A stretch of 32,853 nt of DNA from Candidatus Calescibacterium sp. (lineage in GTDB: Bacteria > Calescibacteriota > Calescibacteriia > Calescibacteriales > Calescibacteriaceae): the NCBI GenBank assembly GCA_025060505.1, contig JANXBU010000019.1:1-32853 (forward strand), read 5' to 3'. A program made the translations under genes and the position numbers. Under the pieces are notes generated by a model. It did not search any database and had not been told where the DNA came from. It saw only the letters and a list, made by a program, of their open reading frames with translations. This document shows, piece by piece, positions 6,244 to 32,853 of this stretch (position 1 is the stretch's first letter; every line of letters begins with the position of its first letter).

Positions 6244-6918
6244 TCACAGTTCATCTTTTTTTATCTCTTTGAGTGTTCCATTTTCTATTTTGTAGATTTT
6301 ATCAAGCATTTTTGCTATGTTCATGTTGTGCGTGACAAGAACAAAGGTTGTATTTTCTCCCATGATTTTGAGAGTTTCTGTTATGACCTCATAAGCGGTT
6401 TGTGGATCAAGATTGCCTGTTGGTTCATCTGCAAGGAGTATCTCTGGAAAAACACAAAGAGCCCTCGCTATTGCAACACGCTGATATTCTCCGCCAGAAA
6501 GTTCCCATACATAAGCTCTCTCAGGTATTCCGAAAATTTTCATTATCCTTTTGACTTCATCTCTCTTGACACCTGCTCTTGAAGCGAAAAGGAGTATGTT
6601 CTCTTCAACAGAAAGTTCTTCTATCAGGTATCCGTTTTGAAATACAAAAGATATTTTTCGTCCTCTTATATTCTCAAGTTCCCTTTCGTTCATCTTAGAT
6701 ATGTTTTGTCCATCTATAATAACTTCTCCTTCGTCTGGTTTCAAGATAGTTCCTATTATAGATAGCAGTGTTGTTTTACCAGAACCTGATGCTCCAATTA
6801 TTGAAATCTTCTCTCCTCGGCGCACTTCAAGATCAACAGAATTCAGAACTCTTATCTCTTTGCTACCAGAAAAATAGGATTTCTTTATTTTTTTGAGTTC
6901 TATTATGCTTTCTATCAT
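6244..6918 (-). CDS. ABC transporter ATP-binding protein, LolD/MacB type
   Basis: ATPase subunit of 224 residues. Walker A 'GASGSGKT' (42-49), Q-loop 'FVFQ' (91-94), signature 'LSGGEYQRVAIARAL' (140-154), Walker B 'ILLADEPTGNLD' (160-171) and the H-loop 'VTHN' (195-198) are all intact. 'ADEPTGNLD' is typical of the MacB/LolD/FtsE group, which drives mechanotransmission (lipoprotein release, efflux) rather than solute uptake. It is the third gene of a minus-strand operon, 35 bp after a large lipoprotein gene. No permease (LolC/E or MacB-like) accompanies it, so its membrane partner must be encoded elsewhere. The company of two lipoprotein genes fits a link to lipoprotein trafficking, but this is inference and lolD is not assigned. 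Confidence 0.9.
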   Translation of the reverse strand: MIESIIELKKIKKSYFSGSKEIRVLNSVDLEVRRGEKISIIGASGSGKTTLLSIIGTILKPDEGEVIIDGQNISKMNERELENIRGRKISFVFQNGYLIEELSVEENILLFASRAGVKRDEVKRIMKIFGIPERAYVWELSGGEYQRVAIARALCVFPEILLADEPTGNLDPQTAYEVITETLKIMGENTTFVLVTHNMNIAKMLDKIYKIENGTLKEIKKDEL

Positions 6919-31027: not shown

Positions 31028-31140
31028 GAATATATCAATGAATATCATTGCTACGAAATTCCTTGATGTTTTGCGGATACTTTATGTGCAAAACAAAGGG
31101 AACAAAGGTATTTTGTTTTTGAGGATGTTTGAGAATTATC

Positions 31141-31880
31141 TTATAGGCATATGACAATAACTCTATACCGCATGTGGAAAAACATAAAAAAACTTAGCTT
31201 CAGAAGTGTCATAAGGTTCCAGAGAATGAACCTTATCAATACAGATACACTCGCAAGCTTGTATAGCCTCGTATTATCCCTATCACCCCAAGCCCTCTTC
31301 ACATTCCCGAACAACTGCTCAACCTTATACCTATTCCGCCGATATATCTTCCTGTGATACCTCTCATCCTCATACCTCTCCTTTACCACCTTCCTGTATC
31401 TATTCCTCACCTCTTGCTTCGGCGTCTCACTTATCGGAATTACACACTTGATTTGCCTCTGCTCAAAATGCTTTATCAATCTCACACTGTCGTAGTATCC
31501 ATCCGCTACAAAATGTTGAGCCTTGAACTCAGCCCTATCAAGTATCGCCCACAAAAGCTTTAATTCATCAGAATACGCCTCGCCAACTTTTACTCCTAAA
31601 ACTATCTTCTTTTTACCTCTAACACTATCAAAACTTCTGTCTTTACATGTGCCTTTACTTCTCTTATTTGTTTGCCTCTGAGATAGCTAAGTTTCACCGT
31701 GTCGTCGTATCCAAAACCTGTAGCATTTTTAATACATGGTATTCCTTTATATCAAAAACTTTCTCACAGATTTCTGCGGTTTTTGACAAGACGAACGAGA
31801 GAAGCTCAGGGTTTAGTTTTTTGAACCTGTAGAAGATTGTGGAAAAGTCGGGGGAGTGTCCGAGTATCGTCTTCTACCCA
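31141..31880 (-). pseudogene. Decayed DDE insertion-sequence transposase (IS4/IS5-like)
   Basis: Only the C-terminal 137 codons (31141-31554) are open: 'FVADGYYDS', 'YRRNRYKVEQLFGNVKRAW', carrying the second catalytic D and the E. Upstream the gene continues in other frames. Bases about 31555-31720 encode pieces like 'GFGYDDTVKLSYLRGKQIRE' (first catalytic D) and 'GVKVGEAYSDELKLL'; about 31730-31870 gives 'LGHSPDFSTIFYRFKKLNPE'. Several frameshifts and stops separate these parts, so the transposase is inactive. Family placement rests on the D...D...E pattern and the YxxRxxVEQLF motif. Terminal inverted repeats were not found with confidence. Confidence 0.82.
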
Positions 31881-31967
31881 AAACGTGCCTTTTTGCGGTA
31901 TGTATATTATAAGCACTGTAGTTCTTACCCTGAAAGAATTTAAAACATTCTGAGACCTATAATAAAA

Positions 31968-32043
31968 GCTGGCAGGAGGCAGGGACTAAAATTATTAGGA
32001 GGCAGACGCCCCCAGAGCTCTATAATCCTGACCTCCTGTCAGC
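31968..32043 (+). ncRNA. Long hairpin in the IS110 leader; candidate bridge-RNA part
   Basis: 'gctggcaggaggcagg' (31968-31983) can pair with 'cctgacctcctgtcagc' (32027-32043): 16 base pairs, including one G-U, with one bulged A and a 43-nt loop. It lies in the non-coding stretch before an IS110 transposase, where IS110-group elements encode their bridge RNA (established for this family). 'tataat' boxes flank it at 31958 and 32021. The loop contains a second copy of 'aggaggcag' (31997-32005). Whether it is a bridge RNA, a translational control hairpin, or both cannot be told from one copy. Confidence 0.45.
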
Positions 32044-32064
32044 CAACAACAAGAAAAAAAAAGA

Positions 32065-32072
32065 AAAGGAGG
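32065..32072 (+). promoter_or_regulatory. Shine-Dalgarno of the IS110 transposase, third copy of a leader motif
   Basis: 'aaaggagg' lies 5 nt before the ATG at 32078. It is within the third copy of 'aggaggcag' (32067-32075; others at 31974 and 31997). The arm 'ctgacctcct' (32028-32037), which contains an anti-Shine-Dalgarno, can pair with it. Confidence 0.75.
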
Positions 32073-32077
32073 CAGAG

Positions 32078-32853
32078 ATGAGGCTATTAGGCTGTGATGT
32101 AGGAGCGGAGTTTATTATAATCCACGATGGCAAGACCGCAACGAAAATAACAACCCCCTTAGAGGCACAAGCCTACATAAAGAATAGTGATGTAGTGATA
32201 TTGGAGCAGACGGGGGCATATGGTGTCAGATGGTGTGAGCTTTTCCAAAGCCTTGGAGCAAAAGTTTACATAGCAGACGGCAGAGACTTTAAGAGCTACC
32301 GCAACGCCTACAGCAGAAAAAAGGACGATGCAACAGACGCCCTATACCTAATCCAATACTACAAAGAAAAGCCCCACAAGTGTAGACCATATAACCCCCA
32401 GCAAGTTCACATAAGAGCATTAATACGCCAACACCTAAGAAACCAGAAAGACATAACCCAGCACGCCAACAGACTACGGCAATATTTAGCAGTCATATAC
32501 CCAACAGAGGAGCTTTACAACTCCACACGCCACCGCCTATTTAAGAACCTAAGCCAGCTCATACAACGCCTAAAAGAAACACCCCACGCCCTTAGCCCTT
32601 TAGCCCTATCCGAAGCCCAGAAGCTATCAATATGCCTACAGGAAGCCCAGCACCTACAAGAAGAGATAATCTCAATAGCCCGCAACCATCCAGATTATGA
32701 GATACTTAAAACCTTTGTGGGTTTAGGAGAGCTTACAATAGCCACCCTTTTAGCCTACAGCTGGGACATCTCAACCTTTAAAAGTAAAGATAGCTATATA
32801 GCCTATGTTCTCATGGGAACAACGCTGGAACAATCAGGAAAAAGCATAAACCG
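32078..32853 (+). CDS. IS110-family transposase (DEDD), partial at the window end
   Basis: Open for 258 codons to the window edge with no stop. The N-terminal RuvC-like domain has the DEDD residues: D7 in 'LLGCDVGAE', E43 in 'VILEQTGAYG', and D84 and D87 in 'SRKKDDATDALYL'. A central helical region follows. The C-terminal Transposase_20 part starts at 'LKTFVGLGELTIATLLAY' and reaches 'GTTLEQSGKS', the expected G-x-x-P/E-x-x-x-S-G region near the active serine. Such enzymes excise and insert the element using a bridge RNA. Codon use is richer in GCC, CAC, CTA and AGC than in the chromosomal genes, which points to recent transfer. The ATG is chosen by its strong Shine-Dalgarno. Confidence 0.93.
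   Translation, partial: MRLLGCDVGAEFIIIHDGKTATKITTPLEAQAYIKNSDVVILEQTGAYGVRWCELFQSLGAKVYIADGRDFKSYRNAYSRKKDDATDALYLIQYYKEKPHKCRPYNPQQVHIRALIRQHLRNQKDITQHANRLRQYLAVIYPTEELYNSTRHRLFKNLSQLIQRLKETPHALSPLALSEAQKLSICLQEAQHLQEEIISIARNHPDYEILKTFVGLGELTIATLLAYSWDISTFKSKDSYIAYVLMGTTLEQSGKSIN

Follow-up and report, generated by a model that had tools for sequence, protein, structure and literature searches.

The most likely role of a hairpin in the leader of an IS110-family recombinase gene in Candidatus Calescibacterium sp., to judge from sequence comparison, is that of a guide RNA with which the recombinase finds its target, and not that of a translation switch. The stretch of DNA analysed (the window) is one whole contig of 32,853 nucleotides (C26) from an incomplete genome of 115 contigs. 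We hold it very probable that this account of the hairpin at 31968-32043, including the interpretation of its core as the -10 box of a host promoter, is the best explanation as a whole. The basis lies in relatives of the element: a conserved hairpin, covariation of its stem, matches between guides and flanking DNA, an empty insertion site and a position upstream of host genes. From these we infer the production of the RNA, its binding by the protein, catalysis and the function of the window's own copy. An odd leader thereby becomes a readable guide with a testable rule, namely that the insertion site can be predicted from the guide and is itself the -10 box of a promoter.

The hairpin and its locus

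The first-pass annotation of the leader had reported three copies of the 9-mer AGGAGGCAG, at 31974, 31997 and 32067, and an arm, CTGACCTCCT, at 32028-32037. All were located as described. The 9-mer occurs nowhere else in the 32.8 kb, in which 0.05 copies are expected, and none of 100 shuffles reached three. The stem formed between the arm and the first copy is also present, but the 16 bp originally given was too short; we found 17 bp (31968-31984 with 32026-32043). The hairpin has a predicted folding energy of -37.7 kcal/mol (z = -4.5 versus dinucleotide shuffles), and its internal loop is symmetric, with 13 + 13 nt surrounding a small apical stem (31998-32012). The polarity of this apical stem is reversed compared with the relatives: the purine-rich strand is the 5' strand in the window and the 3' strand in the others. 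The only Rfam match in the window was a tRNA.

Table 1. Features at the right end of the window
Feature	Position	Strand	Basis or remark
Degraded DDE-transposase IS, abutting the leader	31120..31951	-	91% copies on contigs C39/C44; ~220 bp internal deletion
TATAAT, candidate -10 box for the guide RNA	31958..31963	+	Sequence, by inference; also present in L016 at a similar position
Putative guide-RNA hairpin (bridge/seekRNA-type target-binding loop)	31968..32043	+	Fold z -4.5; covariance model match
Predicted left target guide, ACTAAA-ATTAT, identical in sense to the left half (top strand) of the predicted target	31985..31995	+	Position equivalent to left guides of homologues
Apical stem between the two guides, holding most of the second AGGAGGCAG	31998..32012	+	Fold; apical stem in all homologues
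Predicted right target guide, GAGCTC-TATAAT, complement of target right half ATTATA-GAGCTC	32015..32026	+	Equivalent to L016 and L019 right guides, which match right flanks
Bulged A in 3' arm	32031..32031	+	In most homologues also bulged or mismatched, five pairs away from the loop
RBS of recombinase, third AGGAGGCAG	32067..32075	+	Sequence; unpaired with the arm in predicted ensemble
IS110-family DEDD recombinase, cut by contig end	32078..32853	+	PF01548, E 4.3e-13

Near the right end of the window, a DDE IS (31120-31951) is followed by a 126-nt leader and then by the IS110-family gene, which runs off the contig. The right end of the DDE IS at 31951 places the hairpin downstream of it, on the IS110 side. 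No target duplication was seen at the DDE IS. The left-end motif of the related elements, ATTATCTTACA, is absent between the DDE IS and the hairpin. A 9-bp left-end motif at 31135 was rejected as the left end of the element; it lies within the DDE IS and is expected by chance. The right part of the IS110 element is beyond the contig end. The assembly contains no second copy of the element, and a search of the same genome with the C-terminus of a homologue did not find the remaining part of the recombinase. Incomplete on both sides and carrying an unusual apical stem, the window's own copy may be dead.

The encoded protein has the DEDD (RuvC-like) catalytic domain of the IS110 family (PF01548), and D7, E43, D84, D87 and S253 are invariant among 11 aligned proteins. 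The recombinase profile matches the structures of IS621 and ISCro4, and a QSG motif with the invariant S253 aligns to the SG of ISCro4, the window protein being truncated. PF02371 was found only in L046, just above the cut-off.

Conservation among relatives

Exact 8-mer comparison detected no close relatives in GTDB, IMG/VR, plasmids or phages. The homologue search covered one phylum, Aquificota (Aquifex sp., Thermocrinis sp., Hydrogenothermaceae and others), and returned recombinases with 67, 67, 63, 54, 53, 52, 47, 43 and 41% identity and lower, down to 37%. Twelve of these Aquificota relatives carry the same hairpin. It stands in the leader in the window and in 11 relatives, and there represents the upstream non-coding, guide-encoding region typical of IS110 elements. 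The shared plan consists of an outer stem, five closing pairs, a left loop ending in ATTAT, an apical stem and a right loop ending in TATAAT; z values of the relatives' folds range from -3.5 to -8.9. L044 is an exception: its hairpin (6566-6645, minus strand) lies outside the leader, at the right end of an 8-kb element. If that element were circular, the hairpin would once more be upstream of the recombinase gene.

The stem covaries. Eighteen of 27 pairs changed on both sides, and the score of 0.483 compares with 0.246 in shuffled data (reached in 0 of 500 shuffles); slid controls scored far lower. The arms of a given hairpin paired best, or equally best, with each other when compared with swapped arms in 11 of 13 cases. 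A covariance model built from eight hairpins of other species, without the window, found 31967-32044 with 37.8 bits (E = 1.3e-7 in 256 kb), and it also recovered the hairpins of L025, L036 and L015, none of which had been used in building it.

The leaders of distant IS110 elements (26-28% identity) could not be aligned. One of these elements (L005) contains two similar hairpins, and five Aquificota leaders with recombinases of about 30% identity (L026, L027, L028, L029 and L031) contain hairpins of similar plan with other core letters. In L053:2222-4273 (also L080:9766-11817; recombinase 38%), four hairpins, one upstream and three downstream of the recombinase gene, share CAATAG...TTAACGC around the apical stem. 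Together they may form a guide-RNA array that serves a single recombinase.

The internal loop as a guide

As its second option, the first-pass annotation had assigned the hairpin to the bridge RNA. This proposal is strongly supported, since the stem covaries and the internal loop of the relatives matches target DNA. The relatives' elements begin with ATTATCTTACA or a close variant, located 21-85 nt 5' of the hairpin (of the start codon in L015). In ten elements the left guide equals the left flank at 39 of 50 positions, against a mean of 17.7 when guides were swapped (permutation p = 1e-5). The guides of L021 and L015 mismatch their left flanks; with both included, the test still gives p = 2e-5.

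Matches to both sides of the target, so that loop segments could pair with both strands, were found in two relatives. The two loop sides of L043/L016 together predict AGAGC-ATTAT-AATTC, the 15-nt site AGAGCATTATAATTC, and the uninterrupted site is present in five genomes of the same genus: two have the 15-mer unchanged, and three have one or two changes on the left side. In L048/L019 both flanks match in place (left TATAG-ATTAT, right TTAT-AACACT). In addition, the empty sites in relatives of L046/L018 begin with ATTATAAC(A), in agreement with the right guide. For the window, the predicted target ACTAAA-ATTATA-GAGCTC has nothing closer than three mismatches in its own genome. As for a donor-binding loop, no other consistently structured stretch was found from -220 to +420, and no locus contained a donor guide resembling TGTAAGATAA.

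In the mechanism that we propose, the long stem, presumably bound by the recombinase, would display the symmetric internal loop. Its 5' side, ACTAAA-ATTAT, would pair with one strand of the predicted target and its 3' side, GAGCTC-TATAAT, with the other, and the recombinase would exchange strands in the shared core TTAT. Throughout the family, the core would correspond to a host promoter's -10 box, whose TATAAT is read on the opposite strand, and the element would insert there facing away from the host gene.

Promoter targeting and alternative explanations

The right guide of standard-core members has TATAAT at its end, so that their target contains ATTATA, which is the -10 consensus in reverse complement. 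In 10 of 12 elements, a gene read away from the element (leftward) has its ATG 13-37 nt from the core, against a background of 16%, taken from the ATTAT[AC] sites of the same contigs (binomial p = 5e-7). These genes include speE, sucD, rpmB, acpP, rpiB, smc and tyrS (names assigned by eye), and in L052 the insertion is inside a gene. It is possible that the -10 match arises by chance only: TTAT would be the exchange core, and AT-rich promoters hold TTAT anyway. Indeed, the core must be common to the element's own end (ATTATCTTACA). However, in all 11 standard-core members the guide has an invariant A following ATTAT, where the element's own end carries C or T, and the distance from start codons departs from the background as stated. 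We therefore regard coincidence as rather unlikely.

After insertion, the box beside the host gene reads GATAAT or AATAAT. At a distance of 16-18 bp, outward -35-like hexamers are better than those in shuffled ends (p = 0.0002; p = 0.002 without two near copies). In four of 12 left ends (L019, L020, L037 and L015), an outward-facing TTGACT is separated by 17-18 bp from the GATAAT that adjoins the host DNA. From this pair, a putative promoter, the interrupted host gene might be transcribed, which would mean that the promoter is rebuilt after insertion. On balance we lean slightly towards a general scheme in which IS110-type recombinases borne by viruses and ISs of hot-spring bacteria use single-loop guides whose fixed part reads the -10 box and whose variable part picks the promoter. 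The element would split the -10 box while keeping five of its six bases, bring its own outward -35 and leave the host gene expressed, so that rebuilt promoters serve as safe harbours. What is new here is that the guides hold ATTATA (TATAAT reversed) and that 10 of 12 insertions, by their distance from a host start codon, are in promoter -10 boxes; an incomplete search of the literature found no IS110 elements aimed at -10 boxes.

The first-pass annotation had put forward a translation switch. In it, the RBS is masked by the arm at 32028-32037 except when the first copy engages this arm, and a ligand on the left arm, such as the transposase, stops translation. In its favour, the RBS motif occurs in three exact copies, and with the 5' arm forced open in the computation the arm does pair with the RBS. 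The arm had been thought able to pair with any of the copies. At 37 C its pairing has a probability of about 1.0 with the first, 4e-6 with the second and 0.005 with the RBS copy; at 70 C the first pairing is again about 1.0 and that with the RBS 0.005 or less. The RBS is thus left free when the arm holds the first copy, as had been proposed, and the step by which translation would be turned off is not supported. Among 13 homologues, the arm pairs no better with its own RBS than with those of other elements, so the leader lacks the conserved alternative pairing that defines an RBS-sequestering leader. The distance from hairpin to start codon varies from 16 to 171 nt, L044 has its hairpin at the opposite end of the element, the L015 leader has no hairpin, and the loop letters match target DNA instead. 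The complementarity of the arm to the RBS follows from a purine-rich 5' strand and a pyrimidine-rich 3' strand, which are common to most members. A switch is thus highly improbable.

A combination, in which the guide RNA is retained and the recombinase also lowers translation by binding the hairpin on its own mRNA, stem opening exposing the anti-RBS arm, would fit the single predicted transcript that carries hairpin and RBS 34 nt apart. Since neither the RBS pairing nor the spacing is conserved, and a protein on the double-stranded stem would stabilise it and not open it, we consider this improbable. Least probable of all is an attenuator or terminator that shields the transposase from outside transcription. 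The hairpin is strong and lies 5' of the transposase gene, but no T run follows the stem, and termination has no need for a symmetric internal loop with conserved ATTAT/TATAAT and letters matching the flanks. The guide RNA remains our preferred explanation of the hairpin.

Virus-like cargo of related elements

L048 is a plain IS of about 2 kb, and other elements reach 7-12 kb (L043, L044 and L050). The cargo of L043 includes a YdjM-like protein, a SWIM zinc finger and a P-loop ATPase; that of L044, a secretin matching M13 pIV and a P-loop ATPase; and that of L050, a transglutaminase-like protein, a holin, an endolysin and a lytic transglycosylase. A transglutaminase-like gene is also present in L046, which is cut by a contig end. 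Judged by the M13-pIV-like secretin and the lysis genes, some relatives are virus-like elements. In L050, a unit of about 105 bp that begins with ATAAAAACAGTATGGATTTTTAGG is repeated three times in tandem 3' of tnp. If the proposed targeting rule holds, it shows how proviruses with RNA-guided recombinases find insertion sites that do no harm, and a class of interest for DNA engineering gains a compact single-loop system from thermophiles.

Comparison with known systems

The bridge RNA of IS621 has 177 nt and comprises a 5' stem-loop, a target loop and a donor loop (PMC11208160). As in that RNA, the left and right guides of the internal loop here both include the core, the left guide having the same sense as the left target and the right guide being complementary to the right target. 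The hairpin RNA does not follow the rest of the IS621 plan, with its donor loop and 5' stem-loop: one structured loop is seen, many start codons are only 16-19 nt away, which leaves no space for a second, and the core is TTAT instead of CT (PMC11208160).

The seekRNA of ISEc21 (IS110/IS1111) has 74 nt (PMC11187229). Both systems have a 70-90 nt hairpin upstream of tnp with one segment for each target strand, in the order of IS110-type elements, where the 5' segment pairs with the bottom strand and the 3' segment with the top one (PMC11187229). By these features the predicted hairpin RNA would qualify as a seekRNA, strand-match order included (PMC11187229). Unlike the described seekRNA systems, the hairpin here has a symmetric internal loop with a constant ATTAT/TATAAT core, the hosts are Aquificota, the proposed target is a promoter -10 box, the elements can reach 7-12 kb, and the recombinase has ~460-500 aa with a long C-terminal tail (PMC11187229).

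Filamentous proviruses with an IS110-type transposase are known in Thermus (phiOH16/Zuza) and Neisseria (Nf) (PMC11437467). They likewise have the IS110-family gene at one end, and L044 encodes an M13-pIV-like secretin. What differs from those proviruses (PMC11437467) is that a guide RNA and a target rule are proposed here. The secretin is that of the relative L044, and the window contig ends within tnp.
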